Of a stretch of DNA of 64,000 bases, positions 1 to 45,548 are shown one piece after another (the stretch's first letter is position 1; the number at the start of each line of letters is the position of its first letter). A program made the translations under genes and the position numbers. The notes beneath the pieces were generated by a model. The model saw only the letters and a list, made by a program, of their open reading frames with translations. It searched no databases and was not told the DNA's origin. Source of the DNA: an uncultured Idiomarina sp. (GTDB lineage Bacteria; Pseudomonadota; Gammaproteobacteria; Enterobacterales; Alteromonadaceae); contig CAMPHF010000002.1 of the NCBI GenBank assembly GCA_946885915.1, positions 62,001-126,000 of the forward strand, read 5' to 3'.

Positions 1-361
1 CCACTTTAAGCGCATCAACGACGCTCACGGCCACCTAATTGGCGACCAAGTGATCATTCAGGTAGGCGCAGTCCTGCGCGAACATGTGCGGTTAACCGAC
101 CAAGTCGGACGTTGGGGTGGTGAGGAGTTTTTGATCATCAGCCCTGATACCAACCAAGCGGGCGCGCTTGTGATCACTGATAAACTACGTGATGCCTTAG
201 CTCAGGTCGATTTTCCTCAACAGCTTGAAGTCACCCTCAGCTTCGGCATCGCAACGGCAAAGGGCTTAGCACTGCCAGAAGATTTATTGCAAGCCGCAGA
301 CAAACAACTGTATCTGGCAAAAGCCAATGGCCGTAATCAAGCCTTGGCCGTCGAGCTTTGA
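1..361 (+). CDS. Diguanylate cyclase GGDEF domain, C-terminal part (cut by window edge)
   Basis: This is the 3' end of a gene that starts before the window; the reading frame is open from base 2 to a TGA at 359-361. The fragment begins inside a GGDEF domain with the metal/substrate-binding HFKRINDAHGH segment, then RWGGEEF, the active-site loop, so the domain should make cyclic di-GMP from two GTP. An RxxD inhibitory site (RLTD) lies five residues before GGEEF, which suggests product inhibition. The ending (ADKQLYLAKANGRNQ) is the normal C-terminus of the domain. The sensory part is outside the window. Its 3' end overlaps the convergent gene ending at 337 by 25 bases. Confidence 0.93.
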   Translation, partial: HFKRINDAHGHLIGDQVIIQVGAVLREHVRLTDQVGRWGGEEFLIISPDTNQAGALVITDKLRDALAQVDFPQQLEVTLSFGIATAKGLALPEDLLQAADKQLYLAKANGRNQALAVEL

Positions 362-1593
362 AAACTGACGTCTACATCTTCAATGATCAATAACTGATTC
401 ACTGCGCTAACCGGCCGCTCGTGGCGATGTAATTGAAACCATTGCCGCTGTGCCGCCGGCAAGCCTTGATAGGCGGCCAACACTGCATACAGCCACATCT
501 CGGCAGCCCACGGCAGCTGCTGCTGAGACCAATAATCGAGTGCGGATTGAGTCGCAGCGGTCGTGGTTAAAGTCACGAAGAACTGCTCTACGTCTGTTTG
601 TAATTGTTGCTGGCGTGCTGCCACACTGGCGTCATGAGCAGCCAACAACACCGGTGGTGCAACACTTGGGGTGGTGGCACTTGCCCGTGACCGCGACGCT
701 GGAATAGCGTTTAACACAGCCACTATATTTGCATGCTGATCGCGGTTATCTAAGCTCGCAGCCATTGCTGGGCGCAACGGCTTTGCCTTATTCACCAACG
801 CTGGTACACGGGTACGCCAGGCATACTGGGAGATTTCCAAGCTTGGGTGCTGGCGCAAAAAGTCCGCCATATTCTGAATAAGGACACTGCGGGCCTGTTG
901 CTCACGAAAGCGTGTCATTAAACCAACTAAGCGATCTTGCACCGCCAGTAAACTGGCATGATGTTGGCTCATCTGTGCTTGGAATTGAGTCACCAATAGC
1001 TGGCGTAACTTGGGGAAGCCCTCCGCCCACTCAATAAACTGGTGGAAATCGATGAGTGCTAAGCTTTCTAGTAAGCGTTTAATCTGCCCTTGAGCGCGCT
1101 GATTTTCAGCGATTTTTTCGGTTAAGCTAGCCACAAAACCAAAGTGCGAATTTAGCCGTTGCCAGAGACTATGAATCGCCTCATCAAACTGCCCATGTAA
1201 GTCGTAAACGAGCTCGGTTAACCGCTGTTGTTGCACGTTTGCACGCCAGATATCAGCCTGTCGTTGCGCAGCGCGAAAACGCAATACGGCTTGCTCGATA
1301 CGCTCTAAACGCTCCCGAATATCGGTCTGTAAATGGCGTCGTTGCTCATCTTCTAGCATACTCGCGAGTAATTCACGTAAACCGGGCCGCAATACCGGCG
1401 GTGCATCATCTTCAGGTTGGTATATCAATCGGGCTTGCTGTAATTTTTCCAGTGCGCTGGTGCTCAGCTGGGTCGTATCAAGCTCTCCCTCAATATAAGC
1501 CTGAACCAACACCTCAGCATGCCGACCGAGCAAGCTAAGCCGCTCAATGCCGTCCCGTAGCAGTGGGCTGACCCGAACTTTATCGCCTGCCAT
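337..1593 (-). CDS. MukF/MksF-like subunit of an SMC-like complex (third gene of operon)
   Basis: A 418-residue soluble protein with no signal peptide. It has a likely winged-helix N-terminus (about 1-90), a long alpha-helical middle rich in Gln, Leu and Arg (about 90-270), and a helical C-terminus after a low-complexity stretch near 300-325. I assign it by position and architecture: it directly follows a small MukE/MksE-like gene and a large SMC-like ATPase, and the third member of MukBEF, MksBEF and Wadjet (JetABC) complexes is a kleisin-type protein of about this size. It starts two bases after the stop of the preceding gene, so the genes are co-transcribed. Its end overlaps the convergent GGDEF gene. 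The specific family is not certain from sequence reading alone. Confidence 0.62.
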   Translation of the reverse strand: MAGDKVRVSPLLRDGIERLSLLGRHAEVLVQAYIEGELDTTQLSTSALEKLQQARLIYQPEDDAPPVLRPGLRELLASMLEDEQRRHLQTDIRERLERIEQAVLRFRAAQRQADIWRANVQQQRLTELVYDLHGQFDEAIHSLWQRLNSHFGFVASLTEKIAENQRAQGQIKRLLESLALIDFHQFIEWAEGFPKLRQLLVTQFQAQMSQHHASLLAVQDRLVGLMTRFREQQARSVLIQNMADFLRQHPSLEISQYAWRTRVPALVNKAKPLRPAMAASLDNRDQHANIVAVLNAIPASRSRASATTPSVAPPVLLAAHDASVAARQQQLQTDVEQFFVTLTTTAATQSALDYWSQQQLPWAAEMWLYAVLAAYQGLPAAQRQWFQLHRHERPVSAVNQLLIIEDVDVSFQSSTAKA

Positions 1594-1595
1594 GG

Positions 1596-2231
1596 CTACA
1601 ACAACGCCTCTTGTTCAGGCAAGGATTCACTGACCGGCAAGCGCTCTTCATCGCGAATGAAACGCACTAATTCAATCAGGTAGTCGACCTTTCCTGTCAC
1701 TTCGAAATATTGCCGTTCTGCATGAGGTTGGCGCACGTAACCATGCTCTTTCAAGCGCTTGAACACTTGCTTAAGCTGAGCGTCCACCGCCTCCGCCGTA
1801 GAATTAAAAAAGCGATCACTCGCCAGCGCCGCTAACCGTTGGCGTAAATTAGGGTGCTCCTCAGTTTGCAAAATTAAGGTCTGCAATTTAATCGTATCGC
1901 CGGCAGCTAAAGCGCCGTCGCGACCTAATGTTTCTTGTACTAAGCTCATCCAATCAAGCAGTGGCAATAGCGAGTGCAGCGTATCGCTAAACTGTTGCTG
2001 CAAATGCTCACGCGCTTGGTCGTCAAAGTGCAGGTAACTCAAAAAGTACACTTGGCTATCTTGCGCCTGCGCCAAACGCCGATTCAGAGGTTGCAAATAG
2101 TCATTGATGGCCTGCTGCTGAGATTCCTCAGCAAGTAACTTCACCCACTCTGGCTCAGTAATAGGACAGATAAATTCACCCGCCAGCAAGCGCTCTAGTA
2201 ACTCGCTGGGAATCGGCAATCGAATGCTCAT
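1596..2231 (-). CDS. MukE/MksE-like small subunit of an SMC-like complex (second gene of operon)
   Basis: A 211-residue protein without membrane segments, rich in helices, ending with a probable winged-helix segment (about 150-200, including GYVRQPHAERQYFEVTGKV, which reads like the beta-wing of a MukE/JetB-type domain). Its ATG overlaps the stop of the upstream SMC-like gene in an ATGA (2228-2231), a sign of translational coupling. Size and place fit MukE/MksE/JetB proteins, which bridge kleisin and SMC head. Assignment is by context and general features; no catalytic residue can be named. Confidence 0.62.
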   Translation of the reverse strand: MSIRLPIPSELLERLLAGEFICPITEPEWVKLLAEESQQQAINDYLQPLNRRLAQAQDSQVYFLSYLHFDDQAREHLQQQFSDTLHSLLPLLDWMSLVQETLGRDGALAAGDTIKLQTLILQTEEHPNLRQRLAALASDRFFNSTAEAVDAQLKQVFKRLKEHGYVRQPHAERQYFEVTGKVDYLIELVRFIRDEERLPVSESLPEQEALL

Positions 2232-5200
2232 GATAAGGCCTCCTCTGCCACTGCTTGCAGGCGTTCCGCGAGTTCCGAGCGGCGTGGTTCAATGCGCTTT
2301 AATTGCGGTTGTTGGTTAGCGTCCAGCTCAATTAAATAACGCCGATCGAACAACTGTAAAACATCGGACTCGGGGTTTGGGAACGCACCCACCACAAAGA
2401 TCTGATTGGCGCGGCAGGCATTAAACAAGGCTTCGACGTTGTGGTAGGCCAAAGTGCCAATTTCATCAATCGGCCAATGCAAGATCAGCTTGGCATGTTC
2501 AGACCGCAGCATACGAGTAAAGGCAAGTAAGTACTTACATAGAATTAAATAAGCCATACCGTGACTAGAGGACTCGGCAAGTTGACGGTCGTTCCGAATC
2601 GTCAAGTCGCGCCCCCGCTCAGTAATTTTCAGTTCTAATTTAAGCAAAGTTTCAAGATTATACTCTTGCTGCGCGCGCAGTAACCCCGCGACTTCATCCA
2701 AAGTCTGTAAATAAGCCGGCGATGGGAGTGCGGTGGGATTATCGCGCCACTCCCGATAGAGTTGCGTGAGTGTGACCAGCGCGGGCCAGAAATCTAGTTC
2801 ATCAATGGTGGAGCTGATGCGAACTTCAGCTTGCTCAATACTGGCTAGCTGCAAGTCATCGCGAACCGCTGCAGTCAGCCGCTGGGAATACTGATCAACC
2901 TTTTGGTGAATGTCGTTAAAGACCGTAAAGAATTGCTCTAACTGGGTGCCAATGGTATGCCCTTGCTCAATCACTTGTTGGCGCTGATCACTTAACACTT
3001 GCAGAATGTCGGCAAACACCGCCAAGCGCTGTTGGTCGTTAAGTGGCTGCTCACTCTGTCCCGCCGCCTGCGCTAAGCTTTGTTCCATAAATTGGACAAA
3101 TTCTAATTGCGCATCACGCCGTAACTGGCTCTCAAATTGCTCCAGTAGTTCCTGTAATTGGCGACTGCTGACGTGGTAGCTTTGCAATGCCGTTTCCGCA
3201 CGCTGTAAGCGTTCCTCCAAGTCGCCGGAGGATGTTGCAGTGCCAGCCTGAGTTGCTACCGGTAAGGTCGCCATGCGAGCCAGTAACTGTTGTACCGCTT
3301 TACTCTGTTCTTGCGCTTGCTGCTTGGTTTGCTGTAACCGCTGCTGAGTTGCGGCTGCTTGTTGCTTCAGTTCGCGTAGTTGTTGCTGAAGTTGCTCTAG
3401 TTCCAGTTGTTTCAATGATTTGGTTTGCTTAGCGCGCTGCTCGCGCTCCAACAACTGCGGCCGGTCCCGCTCCCAAGCCACCCGCATAAAATCTTGATAG
3501 CGCTCGATTTGGCTTTGTGAGCCAAGTAACTGCTGAATTTTTTCTTGTAGCGCTGCACGCTCTTGTTTGAGTTGCTGCAAGCGGGTGCTATCGACGCCCT
3601 GGTGCGCCAAATCCGTATTGAATTCTTGCTCTAAGTCGGTCAATTGGGCTTTTATCGAGGCCCGCTTTGCTTGCACCGCTTCACGCAACGCCGCCAGTTC
3701 AGCGTCAAGCGCCGCTAGCTCCGCTTGGCCTTCGGCTTCTAGCTCTAGCTGCTGCTCGGTAATTTGCGCTTTTAGTGCTTGCAGCTGTTGCTCCAAGCGC
3801 GCTTGGAGCGTATTGAGCTGACTCTCAACTTCCTGCGCACGTTGTTGCCCTTCGCTCTGTTGCGCCTCACGCAGCTGCTGCTGTTGGGCTTTTAACCGCG
3901 CCTTTGCATCACGGGCATGGGCGACTTCGCGTTCACCACGCTCTTGTTGTTGCTTCACTTGTTGGAGCGCTAGTTGAGCCTGTTCAACCGCTTTACTTGC
4001 CTGCGCGAGTCGCTGTTCGGCCTGTTTTAACTTGGCTTCTGCGGCGCTCACGCTAGCTTGCGCTTGGCTGAGTTGCGCCTGCAGTTGCTGGGCATGGCGA
4101 GCCGGCTCAAGCTGACTCAGATCGAGCTCAACGCCACCCCAATATCCCGCCGCAGCCTCATGCAATACCGGCTGTAAATCAGTCCGCTGTAACAACTCAT
4201 TGGCAAACACTTTGCCATGCTGCTGCTCCCAGTCAGGAATCGCCTGCGCCAAAAATGCCTGGAGCGAATCAGGCGCTGGCTCACAGGCTTGCTCGCTCGC
4301 CTGAAGTGCTTGTTTCGCTTGCTTCAGCGCTGCTCGCTGTAACGCCAATTCCTGCTCTGCTTGGCTTTGTTCACGCTGTAGCTGAGCCACCGTCTCACGC
4401 TGCTGCAAACGCTGTTGCTGTAATTGCTGCAGAGCCTCTTGTTGCGCGGTTAAACGGCTCTCGGCAGCTTCCACTTCATCCCAATCATCGCGGGTTAAAA
4501 AACCCTGTTGCAGTTGTTGCTGCAAACTAATGTGCTGCTGTTGCAACTGCTGTAAGCGCTGCGAAAACTGCTGGCGAACCTGTTCTTGCTGCTCAGCTAG
4601 CTTGTGCCGTAATTGTTCGCGTTGCTGCAATTGCGAAGCGCGCAGGGTGTCACGTTCTACCTGCTTAGCGGCCAGTTGCTGCTCCCGTTGCTGTACGAAC
4701 CGATTTAACTGCTCATGTAGCTTTAACTGTTGTTGCTGCAACTGAGCTTGGGCGTCCCCTTGCTCCGCGGTTAACGCCTGAATATGTGATTGTAAATCAG
4801 CGGCCTCTAACTGCAGCTGAGGTAAACCTTTGAGCGCTCGCGCGAGTGCCGGATAATCTTGCGCCTCGTAGTCATCAAAGCGTTGTTGTAGGTCATCTAG
4901 TTGATTAGATACCGTTTGTAGCTCGGAAGTGGCTGCGCTTAGCGCTTGATTCACGGCATCCTGTTGGCTCTGCAGCGCGGCTTCACCTTGCTCACGCTCA
5001 CTCTGCAAATGAGTCAGTGCCTCGTCGGTATCAGCATAGGTGGTTTGGGCAACACGAAAGTCGCTTTCTAACACCGGTTTGAGCGCCCATAACTCAGCTA
5101 ATTGTTCGGTTTGAGCGGCCGCATAACCGCTCAACCGCTGAAATTGCTCGGTTAATTCGTCTACCCGCAAGCCTTGGCGCATGGACTGGATCCAGCTTTT

Positions 5201-5890
5201 CAATTTGTGCGCTTTGAAGGCATGGCTGGGGCTGCGGTGGCCGTCTTCCTCTAAAATCGCCGCCAGCATGCTTTTCAGGGTATCCATTTTGCCTTCTTTG
5301 GCATGTACTGCGCTTACTAACTTCTCAATATGGCGTAAGCGTTCGGCACCTTGCACTAGGGCAAACCGTTTTACCAAACTGCGAAATTTAGTTTGTTCAC
5401 GAGCAGGTCCGCGGCTGGCTTGCAGGTCGTTTTGTAACACCGCGCGATATTCGCTGGTTGCCGATATTTTGTGGCTCACTTGAATATTGTGATTCTTTAA
5501 CTGACTCAGCCATGCTTGATAACTAAGTGCCGAGCGCTTATTGCCGGTACCCTGCAAATAGTGCTGCGGGTTGTATTCCGCTGCAACAAAACGGTAATCA
5601 ACACCATCAGGGCGCTTAGTTAACACCACTTGCGATGGCTCACCACTTGCACTTTCATAAGCGTAGATAATGTAGCTTGCCGCGGTAGGAAGGTAGTAAA
5701 TATCGAAATTATCACGGGTTTTTGGAACGACTCGGTTCGGCTGTTCGCCATAGAAAACCGGAATTAACCGCTGCAGCGTGGTTTTCCCTGAAGCGTTACT
5801 GCCACAGATGTTGGTGTGTCCCGTCACATCGAGTTCGACCACCCCTTGCAGGTGGCCATTAATCATAATTATTTTATGCAGCTGAGCCAT
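2228..5890 (-). CDS. Large SMC-like coiled-coil ATPase (MukB/MksB-like, DUF3584-type)
   Basis: A 1220-residue protein with SMC architecture: an N-terminal ATPase half with Walker A GSNASGKT (residues 30-37), a long Gln/Ala/Leu/Glu coiled coil (about 245-535), a small non-coiled centre (about 537-600, with GYWGGVELD) in hinge position, a second coil (about 600-960) and a C-terminal ATPase half. The latter carries LILHWPIDEIGTL (1135-1147), a Walker B with D1142-E1143. Where an ABC signature is expected the protein has ESSSHGMAY (1106-1114) instead of LSGGQ. The N-terminal motif CGSNASGKTTLQRLIPVFYGE-like block recalls the DUF3584 family from memory. Proteins of this kind bind and probably extrude DNA loops; a chromosome-organising or plasmid-defence role is inference. 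It is first in its operon, 54 bases after a TPR-GGDEF gene. Confidence 0.8.
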   Translation of the reverse strand: MAQLHKIIMINGHLQGVVELDVTGHTNICGSNASGKTTLQRLIPVFYGEQPNRVVPKTRDNFDIYYLPTAASYIIYAYESASGEPSQVVLTKRPDGVDYRFVAAEYNPQHYLQGTGNKRSALSYQAWLSQLKNHNIQVSHKISATSEYRAVLQNDLQASRGPAREQTKFRSLVKRFALVQGAERLRHIEKLVSAVHAKEGKMDTLKSMLAAILEEDGHRSPSHAFKAHKLKSWIQSMRQGLRVDELTEQFQRLSGYAAAQTEQLAELWALKPVLESDFRVAQTTYADTDEALTHLQSEREQGEAALQSQQDAVNQALSAATSELQTVSNQLDDLQQRFDDYEAQDYPALARALKGLPQLQLEAADLQSHIQALTAEQGDAQAQLQQQQLKLHEQLNRFVQQREQQLAAKQVERDTLRASQLQQREQLRHKLAEQQEQVRQQFSQRLQQLQQQHISLQQQLQQGFLTRDDWDEVEAAESRLTAQQEALQQLQQQRLQQRETVAQLQREQSQAEQELALQRAALKQAKQALQASEQACEPAPDSLQAFLAQAIPDWEQQHGKVFANELLQRTDLQPVLHEAAAGYWGGVELDLSQLEPARHAQQLQAQLSQAQASVSAAEAKLKQAEQRLAQASKAVEQAQLALQQVKQQQERGEREVAHARDAKARLKAQQQQLREAQQSEGQQRAQEVESQLNTLQARLEQQLQALKAQITEQQLELEAEGQAELAALDAELAALREAVQAKRASIKAQLTDLEQEFNTDLAHQGVDSTRLQQLKQERAALQEKIQQLLGSQSQIERYQDFMRVAWERDRPQLLEREQRAKQTKSLKQLELEQLQQQLRELKQQAAATQQRLQQTKQQAQEQSKAVQQLLARMATLPVATQAGTATSSGDLEERLQRAETALQSYHVSSRQLQELLEQFESQLRRDAQLEFVQFMEQSLAQAAGQSEQPLNDQQRLAVFADILQVLSDQRQQVIEQGHTIGTQLEQFFTVFNDIHQKVDQYSQRLTAAVRDDLQLASIEQAEVRISSTIDELDFWPALVTLTQLYREWRDNPTALPSPAYLQTLDEVAGLLRAQQEYNLETLLKLELKITERGRDLTIRNDRQLAESSSHGMAYLILCKYLLAFTRMLRSEHAKLILHWPIDEIGTLAYHNVEALFNACRANQIFVVGAFPNPESDVLQLFDRRYLIELDANQQPQLKRIEPRRSELAERLQAVAEEALS

Positions 5891-5944: not shown

Positions 5945-8077
5945 TTAGGGCCCTTCAATGGTATTCATGATAATCCAACCGCGTTCTACCGCGGCTGATA
6001 AATCGGTCTCGAGTGCATCTTTTGCCTGCGCATAAGGCACTTGTAAGGCGGTAACTCCCACCGCACGATTACGACCATGCGCTTTACCCGTATACAATGC
6101 CATATCCGCCACTTGCAACACCCGCTCCCAATCCATTTCTTGTTCGCTCACATTGCCAAATGGCAGGCTTATATAACCAGCGGTGGTGGTCACCTCTAAC
6201 TGTTTACCTTCGTAAGCGATAGGGGTGTCGGCAATCGCCGCCAAAATCCGCCGACAGAGGTTTTCTAAACCTGCATTATCGACATTTTTGACGTAAAAAA
6301 GAAACTCTTCACCGCCCCAACGGATGAGTTTATCGGAGTCGCGGCAAACGTGTTGTAAACGTTTGCTAATCTCTTTCAACACCTCATCGCCCGCGGCATG
6401 GCCATGCTTGTCATTAATACGTTTGAAAAAATCAATGTCAATGAGGACTAAGCCGTCAGCACTGTGCTCATCACTGGCGCGCCGTTGTTGCTGACGTTTA
6501 GCCATTTCCTCTTGTAAGGCACGACGGTTCCATAACCCCGTGAGCGGATCGCGCAGACTTTGGTCTGCGAGCTTCAAATTAGCCTCTTTCAAGCGCAAGT
6601 TAGCGCGCCGCGCGGCACGGTATAAAAACCACATCAGCACTGTGCCGATCACAGCAACAATTCCGAGCAACACGTAAATCAATTGTTTTTGCTCATTAAT
6701 CTCGAGTAACTGTTGTTTTAAATCGTTTTCTTGCTCAAGAATTTGAATTTGCTGTGCTTTATCTTTGTTATCGTACAAAGATTGCAGTTCATTCACAGTC
6801 CGCTGCTGTTCAAGTTTCAGTAAGCTTTGGCCCAATTCACGCTGTTCCATTAAAGTTTGTGCTTGGCGTTGATATAACCCGGCCAGACCATAGGCTTCAG
6901 CTAGCTCCCCCAAAATCGCTTCTAAGTCGGACTTGGTCGCATGCTCACGAAAATACGCAAGCGCCAGCTCCATTTCAGCTAAGCCCTCGCGAAACTCACC
7001 TTGTTTCACATGTATCCAGCCCAAATTAAAGGACACCAACTGGATAGAGTATTCATCACTCAGCTCACGCGCTTGGCTCATGGCCTCATTCAAATAGGTC
7101 TCAGCGCGCGCCAATTGATCCGTTCGAATCGCAAGGTCACCCAAATTATTAAACAAGGTGAGCACAGTCGCTTCTGCTTGCTGCTCATTGGCTAGTTGCA
7201 GAGCCTCCAGTAACGTGGCTTCGGCCTGTTCAAAGCGCTCTTGGGTGGTTTCAATAAAACCTTTGAGTAAGTATAGGCTTGGCAAATCGATCGCCAATTC
7301 GTTCTTCCGGGCAAAAGCAATGGCATCTACCACGGTTTGCATGGCTTGCTCATTCTGACCCAATTCGGTTTGAATCTGTGCAATCGATAGATATAAAAAT
7401 GAGCGTCGCGTGGCAGTGCGCGAGTCGTTGGTTTCATTAATGGCATCAAGTGACGCGATTAAATGTTGGAGCGCTTGTTCGTATTTACCCCAATTGGCGT
7501 AAATGCGTGAAATCAGATTATTAGCGTAATAGCGCACCCGCGGCACCACCGCTCGTTCCAGCGCCACCTCGACGTTCGCAACATACACATAGGCTTCAGC
7601 TTGTTTGCCTTGCCACTGTAAGATTTCAATCCGATTGGCGTACACTTCAGCGGTAACGTCTGGAATCCGCATCCGCTTAGCATAAGCGACTAACTCATCA
7701 CTAAGCGCCAACGCCCGCTCTGCCTTGTTATCAAAAGCGTAAGTTAAAATAAGATAGGTATAGCCGCGGACGTAAGTCACCGGTGCCGTGTCAGCATCAA
7801 GCTTGGCAACAATAGGCTCGATTAACGCTCGGTTGGCAGCACTGTCATTACCTATTTGGGTAAGATAATTATCAATATCTGCTTCTAACTGCGCGTCTTG
7901 TAATTGTGCAAGGGTCCATTCGGTCGGACGAGCAAGTTGATCAGCAAAGGAGGCAACAGTCGGCGCACTGGCAATTTGTGCCATCACTGGCGCACTCTTG
8001 AGCGCTAGGCTGAGCACCATAAGGCAAAGGCTTAGCAGCACGGCAACACTACTCCGAGAAAGCCTTTGTCGATGCAT
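5945..8077 (-). CDS. TPR-repeat transmembrane diguanylate cyclase
   Basis: The protein has an N-terminal signal or anchor (MHRQRLSRSSVAVLLSLCL...), a periplasmic array of tetratricopeptide-like helices (about 60-430), a coiled segment, one membrane helix (about 470-490, LIYVLLGIVAVIGTVLMWFL) and a C-terminal GGDEF domain with DIDFFKRINDKHGH and RWGGEEF. An RxxD inhibitory site (RDSD) lies five residues before GGEEF. It should make cyclic di-GMP in response to a signal sensed by the TPR region. I chose the ATG at 8077 because it gives a classical signal sequence; the frame is open to a TTG at 8101, which would add eight residues. The SMC-like operon begins 54 bases downstream, so read-through is possible. 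Confidence 0.88.
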   Translation of the reverse strand: MHRQRLSRSSVAVLLSLCLMVLSLALKSAPVMAQIASAPTVASFADQLARPTEWTLAQLQDAQLEADIDNYLTQIGNDSAANRALIEPIVAKLDADTAPVTYVRGYTYLILTYAFDNKAERALALSDELVAYAKRMRIPDVTAEVYANRIEILQWQGKQAEAYVYVANVEVALERAVVPRVRYYANNLISRIYANWGKYEQALQHLIASLDAINETNDSRTATRRSFLYLSIAQIQTELGQNEQAMQTVVDAIAFARKNELAIDLPSLYLLKGFIETTQERFEQAEATLLEALQLANEQQAEATVLTLFNNLGDLAIRTDQLARAETYLNEAMSQARELSDEYSIQLVSFNLGWIHVKQGEFREGLAEMELALAYFREHATKSDLEAILGELAEAYGLAGLYQRQAQTLMEQRELGQSLLKLEQQRTVNELQSLYDNKDKAQQIQILEQENDLKQQLLEINEQKQLIYVLLGIVAVIGTVLMWFLYRAARRANLRLKEANLKLADQSLRDPLTGLWNRRALQEEMAKRQQQRRASDEHSADGLVLIDIDFFKRINDKHGHAAGDEVLKEISKRLQHVCRDSDKLIRWGGEEFLFYVKNVDNAGLENLCRRILAAIADTPIAYEGKQLEVTTTAGYISLPFGNVSEQEMDWERVLQVADMALYTGKAHGRNRAVGVTALQVPYAQAKDALETDLSAAVERGWIIMNTIEGP

Positions 8078-8292
8078 GGGTACTATCCATAAATGTGTCA
8101 AATTATGTCAGTGAAATTACTACATCGGCGCTCAGATGACAACAAAGTAACCAACGAATATTGCTTAAAATAGCAGCCGAATTCGCCCGCGGGCAGCAAC
8201 CTCAGTGCTAGATAAAATCGACGCTGTTGGTTACAATGCGCACGATTTTTAGCCTCGGGTTTGCGACCCGAACCGCAGAAGGAAGATAACTG

Positions 8293-44204: not shown

Positions 44205-44333
44205 CGCTAACTTGCGCGTAGAGAGCGCCGCTTCGGAAACGATCGGCGCTGCTCTTCACCGTCGTTGCAACGCAATGGCATACCGAACAGGGAAGGCCTA
44301 ACCTGTACCACAACAAGGATTAGATGTTGGTTT

Positions 44334-45548
44334 ATGCACTATTCATATATTGCACGACAACCTATCTTCGACCGCAACCTTCAAGTTTACGGTTATGAAC
44401 TTTTATTTCGGGACAGTGAAGCCAATGTCTTTCCTGACACGCATCCTGATGAAGCCACTTCCAAATTATTGTTAGAACAACATCTGTTGGGCGACATCGA
44501 CACAGTATGTTTAGGCAAACAAGCATTCATTAATTTTCACACCAACACTATTATCCACAAGTTTCCTGACTTTTTAGATGCAGAAAAAGTGTGGATTGAA
44601 GTACTCGAAACGGTTGAAGTGAGTCACGAATTAAAACGTGCATGCGAGCTCACCAACCATAAAGGCTATCGACTAGCGCTGGATGACCATGATTTTTCTG
44701 AGCGGTGGAAGCAACTGATGCCGCATATTAATTTGGTAAAAATCGACATTCAGGACCAAGGGTTACAGCTCGCCAAACGGTTGCAGTGGTTTAAACAGCG
44801 CGGTGTACCGATTTTAGCGGAGCGGGTTGAAACACAGGAGCAGTATGAAGCCTGCAGGGAACTCGGCTTTGACTTCTTCCAAGGCTTCTTCTTCGAACGC
44901 CCAGAAATTATCAAACGTGAGTCACTCAGCCCGCAAAAGTCGAACATGCTCACCATTATGAGTGAGATGTTTAAGCCCGAACTTAATTTTCAGAAGCTGG
45001 CGGCGGTCATTCAAAACGATTTGTCGCTCACATACAGCCTGCTGAAACTGATTAACTCACCGGCGTTTGGACTACGCACCCAAGTTCGCGATATCAACCA
45101 TGCACTCACATACTTAGGTGAAGCTGAAGTGAAGAAGTACCTCGCGCTGGTGGTATTGGCTAACTTAAGTCACGACGAGCCAGAAGAGCTCAATATTAAA
45201 TCGCTCACCCGGGCGCGCTTTATGGAGTTAATCGTTGGCCATGGCCGCGCTGGCCGCGAGACGTCCAGTGCATTTATGGTCGGAATGCTATCTCTGCTTG
45301 ATGTCATTTTACGCCAACCCCTCGACCAAATTTTGTTGCAATTACCATTAGTGGCCGAGCTGAATGAGGCGCTCGTTGCGCGTGATGGGAAATTAGGTCG
45401 CATCCTCGCCTTAGTCGAAGCATATGAACAAGCGGATTGGTCTAAGGTGGATGATTTAATGCAGGTCGAGGGCCTGCAACATCTTGATATTGGCCAATAC
45501 TACCTTGACGCCAGCCAGTGGACAGGATTGCTGTTAGAGCACGCCTAG
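44334..45548 (+). CDS. EAL-HDOD regulatory protein (YuxH/CdgJ-like)
   Basis: A 404-residue cytoplasmic protein: N-terminal EAL-type domain (about 1-200) and C-terminal HDOD domain (about 205-390). The EAL motif reads YELLFR (Leu for Ala), and the DDFGTG loop reads DDHDFS, while VKIDI, AERVET and FFQGFFF remain. Such degenerate EAL domains usually do not hydrolyse cyclic di-GMP; the related CdgJ of Vibrio affects motility. ATG 44334 gives the family start MHYSYIARQPIFDR; the open frame before it shows no conserved sequence. Confidence 0.9.
   Translation: MHYSYIARQPIFDRNLQVYGYELLFRDSEANVFPDTHPDEATSKLLLEQHLLGDIDTVCLGKQAFINFHTNTIIHKFPDFLDAEKVWIEVLETVEVSHELKRACELTNHKGYRLALDDHDFSERWKQLMPHINLVKIDIQDQGLQLAKRLQWFKQRGVPILAERVETQEQYEACRELGFDFFQGFFFERPEIIKRESLSPQKSNMLTIMSEMFKPELNFQKLAAVIQNDLSLTYSLLKLINSPAFGLRTQVRDINHALTYLGEAEVKKYLALVVLANLSHDEPEELNIKSLTRARFMELIVGHGRAGRETSSAFMVGMLSLLDVILRQPLDQILLQLPLVAELNEALVARDGKLGRILALVEAYEQADWSKVDDLMQVEGLQHLDIGQYYLDASQWTGLLLEHA

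Follow-up and report, generated by a model that had tools for sequence, protein, structure and literature searches.

A three-gene SMC operon of an uncultured Idiomarina, a probable nuclease-less member of a B-E-F-D family of SMC complexes

A 64,000-nucleotide stretch of DNA from an uncultured Idiomarina sp. (the window) carries three adjoining genes for an SMC-like complex, and the locus raises the question of what kind of SMC machine they encode and whether it would serve the chromosome or defence. The genes, called B, E and F here, had been predicted from the sequence as three tightly coupled reading frames and are found as such on the minus strand. B (2228-5890) encodes an SMC-type ATPase of 1220 aa from the DUF3584 family, as determined by a match to PF12128 and a 14-row alignment. 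E (1596-2231) encodes a KITE-like protein of the MksE family with 211 aa, assigned by a match to PF21980 and by Foldseek rows. F (337-1593) is an open reading frame for a kleisin-like protein of 418 aa, named from its position and a weak fold match. The stop of B and the start of E overlap by 4 bp in a shared ATGA, and the gap between E and F is 2 bp. All three genes are open along their whole length, and B retains the invariant residues of the ATPase. The order SMC, small subunit, kleisin-like protein was read correctly in the original prediction; it is unlike the F-E-B order of Muk and Mks operons. GGDEF (diguanylate cyclase) genes are located on either side of the operon, at 5945-8101 on the minus strand and at 1-361 on the plus strand. 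The upstream gene features TPR repeats and has the same orientation as B; with only 54 bp between its end and B, the two might share a transcript. It is considered fairly probable that the trio belongs to an SMC family with B-E-F-D as its fullest gene order, lacks the nuclease, extrudes DNA, and likely acts as an accessory condensin.

The B protein has the SMC layout that had been described for it, with Walker A at residues 30-37, a non-coiled centre, and Walker B within residues 1135-1147, and this layout is supported by the 14-row alignment and the DUF3584 match. The Pfam model (PF12128) aligns to residues 8-1188 with 724 bits against a cut-off of 31 and is covered from position 1 to 1190 of 1191. 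In the alignment, G30 and N32-T38 of the Walker A motif GSNASGKTT (residues 30-38; 5777-5803, minus strand) are invariant, as is the WPIDEIG of the Walker B region with the catalytic DE (residues 1135-1147; 2450-2488, minus strand). The non-coiled centre (residues 537-600; 4091-4282, minus strand) includes an invariant cluster at 538-586 and is the probable hinge. The ABC signature variant ESSSHG (residues 1106-1111; 2558-2575, minus strand) is invariant in the same rows and is present in 81 of 90 B sequences, including that of the window, so the departure from the usual signature is conserved. An assignment of B as the plain Smc of Smc-ScpAB was rejected, as the canonical SMC model gives only 30.6 bits against 567. 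Lamassu LmuB was rejected as well; it is the top PADLOC row by E-value, yet reaches 30.4 bits over residues 3-530. With the PADLOC JetC models, the best match to B covers only residues 1-44 (E 9e-7) and the remainder are short or coiled-coil matches, so that no JetC match extends across the whole SMC protein.

E matches the Pfam MksE model (PF21980) with 35.8 bits against a cut-off of 27, which places it in the MksE family, and a Foldseek search with the model of E gave chains of MukEF, MukBEF and JetABC entries as the first rows. F is likely a kleisin, based on its gene position and on a predicted structure for which MukEF and MukBEF chains are among the best structural rows, as a weak match. 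Pfam gave no match between F and the MukF family (KicB, PF03882) at E up to 1, and a profile comparison of F with MukF found nothing. The SMC and KITE subunits that had been proposed are thus confirmed by Pfam, and the kleisin stands as likely. Two relatives of F (P0003 and P0011) bear a UniRef name beginning Phosphoenolpyruvate carboxy, which is most likely a wrong label.

The order B-E-F was found in 32 of 32 loci of named relatives, which come from Idiomarinaceae, Halomonadaceae, Ectothiorhodospira, and two gammaproteobacterial MAGs. The GTDB family of the Aliidiomarina genome G002, which the names of relatives suggest is Alteromonadaceae, has 91 genomes with DUF3584; 50 of their loci were read, and all 50 have this order as well. 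In a tree of 33 SMC heads, the 12 DUF3584 rows form one clade with a support of 100/100 that is separate from MukB, type I JetC, and F-E-B MksB, and the joins between clades are weak or flagged with warnings. The idea of a separate branch of SMC complexes is upheld by this clade together with the B-E-F order throughout, and both the B-E-F order and the ESSSHG signature are traits of the whole branch. SMC-first order is, however, not confined to it, as L106 features a JetD_C gene, an SMC gene, a 530-aa gene, and MksE in that order. A survey of MksE genes was made in the order of Halomonas, and 40 of its places were read. These loci feature F-E-B or SMC-before-kleisin arrangements where readable, and L117 is a DUF3584 B-E-F locus. 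B-E-F loci are under-counted by this survey because it overlooked the E gene of G005, which carries the operon.

In many relatives F is followed by a fourth gene, D (DUF7281, JetD-like), whose site corresponds to positions 1-336 of the window. These 336 bp reach from F to the window edge and are occupied by the end of the convergent GGDEF gene; no JetD-like nuclease gene directly follows F there, and a profile built from the D genes of relatives gave no match in six frames of the 64-kb window. The original observation that no JetD-type gene adjoins the operon is correct for the window but does not hold for the branch as a whole. Counted by locus, the D-profile search found D intact after F in 21 of the 32 named loci, and D is present in 17 of the 50 family loci. 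Among the remaining named loci, D is split in L032, cut by the contig end in L013 (which stops just past F), and reduced to short remnants in L015 and L018, and the profile found none after F in L001, L010, L027, and L029. The sequences of L004, L019, and L020 stop at F and are uninformative on D. In L117 the DUF7281 gene overlaps the end of F. DUF7281 exceeded its cut-off in 11 of 18 genomes that had been selected for carrying DUF3584 and in 26 of the 196 genomes of the G002 family. Of these 26, 24 are among the 91 genomes with DUF3584, so D is present in a minority of them, and in 22 of the 24 a single contig carries the two genes no more than 3 kb apart (Fisher p 2e-7); in G839 and G824 they are on different contigs.

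The nature of D was examined with a 12-protein alignment, which includes D of nine named loci and of L117, the DUF7281 protein of L105, and the JetD_C protein of L106. An E, a DxD, and two glycines are invariant and are still invariant once type I JetD joins the alignment. The E and DxD motifs, which we take to be the Toprim catalytic residues, were found by pattern in 43 of 45 D sequences or pieces. PADLOC JetD models match three of six D proteins tested, from L003 (3.5e-8), L150 (1.2e-4), and L117 (1.3e-3), and gave no match to those of L149, L154, and L151. In a Pfam JetD_C search of 196 genomes, D passed the curated cut-off in 8 of the 17 D loci beside DUF3584 (G812 only with its neighbours counted), and these eight include G694 (L232), a neighbour of the window in the tree. 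JetD_C was not over cut-off at the D genes of the DUF7281-bearing genomes G004-G007, G082, G199, and G256, and a search of 12 DUF3584 genomes gave one JetD_C match, in G256, away from the operon. Membership of the trio in this SMC family and its link to D are jointly very probable, and D is read as a Toprim protein of the JetD superfamily. A distant TOPRIM partner, which the original prediction suggested looking for, is rare. JetD_C was over cut-off in 3 of 67 DUF3584 genomes of the G002 family without DUF7281 over cut-off, strongly in G779 and G790 and weakly in G690, and a D acting in trans as a general rule was rejected on this count.

Other genes are found at the position of D. In L214, L216, L217, and L219 the place after F is taken by a small gene (123-146 aa) that starts within 25 bp, and two pairs of these that were compared are 41 and 44% identical. 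The D-less group L225, L227, L239, and L240 features a 404-aa gene after F on the same strand; the L225 and L227 copies are 89% identical, and the L225 copy resembles window positions 44265-45548 (36%). DUF7281 or D-like genes are also located after the SMC gene of the F-E-B MksB clade in L105, L157, L158, and L161. Among their relatives, L091-L094 lack any same-strand gene immediately downstream of B, which suggests parallel loss of the nuclease in that clade.

There are two possible histories for D, loss and gain. In a tree of SMC ends with 74 of 90 B rows and a root chosen by the analyst, the presence of D requires at least 10 changes, 8 of them forced by starred branches, with the doubtful L153 included; L153 was scored as D-less as its F went unfound, and a weak D (25 bits) is nearby. 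The deepest rows under this root carry D, except L153. The window joins the D-less L237 (support 89) and then the D-bearing L232 and L235 (98). L215 has D inside a D-less group and may have regained it. Given the chosen root and the position of L215, this tree does not by itself separate loss from gain. One gene of 405 aa (84% identical) lies downstream of D in L221 and immediately downstream of F in L223, meaning that a clean loss or gain of D separates the two. Pairwise identities of D and B correlate over 41 loci (r 0.81, with none of 2000 permutations as high), although the nearest neighbours by D and by B differ for several loci. This correlation favours co-inheritance with losses, and D was quite probably lost rather than gained. 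The fullest form of the operon is a Wadjet-like B-E-F-D from which D would have been lost repeatedly, and the ancestral state of the branch appears to be Wadjet-like, the window being a member that has lost D.

A plain MksBEF, the orthologue of the Pseudomonas complex with its genes simply shuffled, is a quite improbable explanation. In its favour, the E protein is over the cut-off of the Pfam MksE model, which also gives matches in the control genomes of E. coli and C. glutamicum, and MksE is the NCBI name of many E relatives. Against it, the heads of DUF3584 and of F-E-B MksB are in separate starred clades, and profiles of B, E, and F gave strong matches in L117 alone of the 40 MksE loci, with three other SMC proteins at 16-25 bits. 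Slightly less probable again is that the trio is what is left of a defence operon in decay once D had been lost. The remnants and broken copies of D in the Halomonadaceae loci L015, L018, and L032 fit such decay, as does the splitting of B and E in L032, whereas the intact reading frames and ATPase residues in the window do not. For the five D-less pairs in which dS was finite, dN/dS was 0.041-0.054 for B and 0.037-0.065 for F; of the 15 pairs, 4 had an infinite dS for at least some genes, and several others had a dS >1.4. B, E, and F are under strong purifying selection in D-less relatives. D itself had a finite dS in five D-bearing pairs, and in each of them its dN/dS (0.09-0.37) exceeds that of every other gene of the operon, as expected for a defence effector. 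These ratios indicate that B-E-F is retained without D and that D is the fastest part of the operon.

The D-less complex could still be a defence system that extrudes and then traps or silences plasmid or phage DNA uncut, or that borrows a nuclease, and this explanation is unlikely but of appreciable weight. In a class-wide draw of 274 genomes, 7 passed the DUF3584 cut-off. The corresponding figures are 91 of 196 for the G002 family and 57 of 151 for the GTDB family of a Halomonas genome, so the distribution within families is patchy. The neighbouring genes of the window had no match beside the operon in the nine relatives compared, and synteny was dropped as proof of vertical descent for this reason. 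In the tree of B, the Ectothiorhodospira genes (L002, L006, and L007) are nested among those of Halomonadaceae, a sign that the operon has moved horizontally. All three features are typical of defence loci. The patchy spread and the unshared neighbours resemble a movable defence locus more than a core condensin; they count against the preferred reading and make a cutting-free defence role possible. The strong JetD genes elsewhere in the D-less G779 and G790 also speak for defence. Against a defence role are the scarcity of JetD_C in the other genomes without DUF7281 and the persistence of D-less groups under purifying selection. The preferred reading, an accessory condensin beside Smc-ScpAB, is given slightly better than even weight as the present role of the window complex, by analogy. 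Canonical SMC was over cut-off in 11 of 12 DUF3584 genomes checked, so the DUF3584 complex is usually a second SMC machine, and a MukF search gave a match in 1 of 12 (G003, 23.9 bits, inside a 1134-aa frame). The genome G199 features a B-E-F-D operon (L151) and no canonical SMC over cut-off; the operon is possibly its only condensin, or the assembly is incomplete. The nearest precedent is MksBEF of P. aeruginosa, for which a chromosome-serving role is reported in two papers (PMC10586767, PMC7485682).

In the proposed mechanism B would dimerise at its hinge, and its heads would be bridged by E and F. Like MukBEF and Wadjet, the complex would use ATP binding and hydrolysis to power the extrusion of DNA loops. 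D, where present, would cut small circular DNA, and D-bearing members of the family probably work like Wadjet; the window complex would extrude DNA without cutting it.

The branch shares features with three known systems. As in Wadjet (JetABCD or MksBEFG), many relatives have their SMC, KITE, and kleisin genes joined in a single operon with a gene for a JetD-superfamily Toprim protein, but the order is B-E-F-D and not A-B-C-D, the DUF3584 SMC matches PADLOC JetC partly and weakly, and the window is without D. Like MksBEF of the P. aeruginosa type, the window has an MksE-family KITE protein and a condensin-like trio without nuclease. It differs in its SMC clade, in the length of the SMC protein (1220 versus ~944 aa in the loci read), and in gene order, which is F-E-B(-G) in C. 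glutamicum and Pseudomonas according to PMC10123090. As for MukBEF, the models of E and F weakly resemble MukEF and MukBEF chains, whereas F is without a MukF (KicB) match, the SMC protein of MukBEF in E. coli has 1486 aa, and the order is reversed.

In a limited literature collection no paper mentions DUF7281, joins DUF3584 with MksB, or treats MksBEF together with gene order, and the five papers that mention DUF3584 are irrelevant by title. The terms type IV Wadjet and new Wadjet type were not used, and titles and abstract openings contained nothing on a DUF3584 B-E-F(-D) family. A review suggests a Wadjet-like origin of MksBEF and MukBEF (PMC10586767). The 2023 PADLOC models tried miss the four-gene Wadjet-like operon or match it weakly. 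The family bears on how SMC complexes passed between defence and chromosome organisation, and it makes the switch directly testable, as its members differ in whether they have the nuclease gene but keep the other genes of the operon intact. It is tentatively proposed, at a little under even weight, that DUF3584 B-E-F-D is an undescribed Wadjet type, marked by a gene order of its own and by DUF7281 as its nuclease, in which repeated nuclease loss has several times made a chromosome condensin out of a plasmid-cutting machine, with the window as one such case. If this is true, a switch from defence to housekeeping would be open to study in relatives with and without the nuclease.
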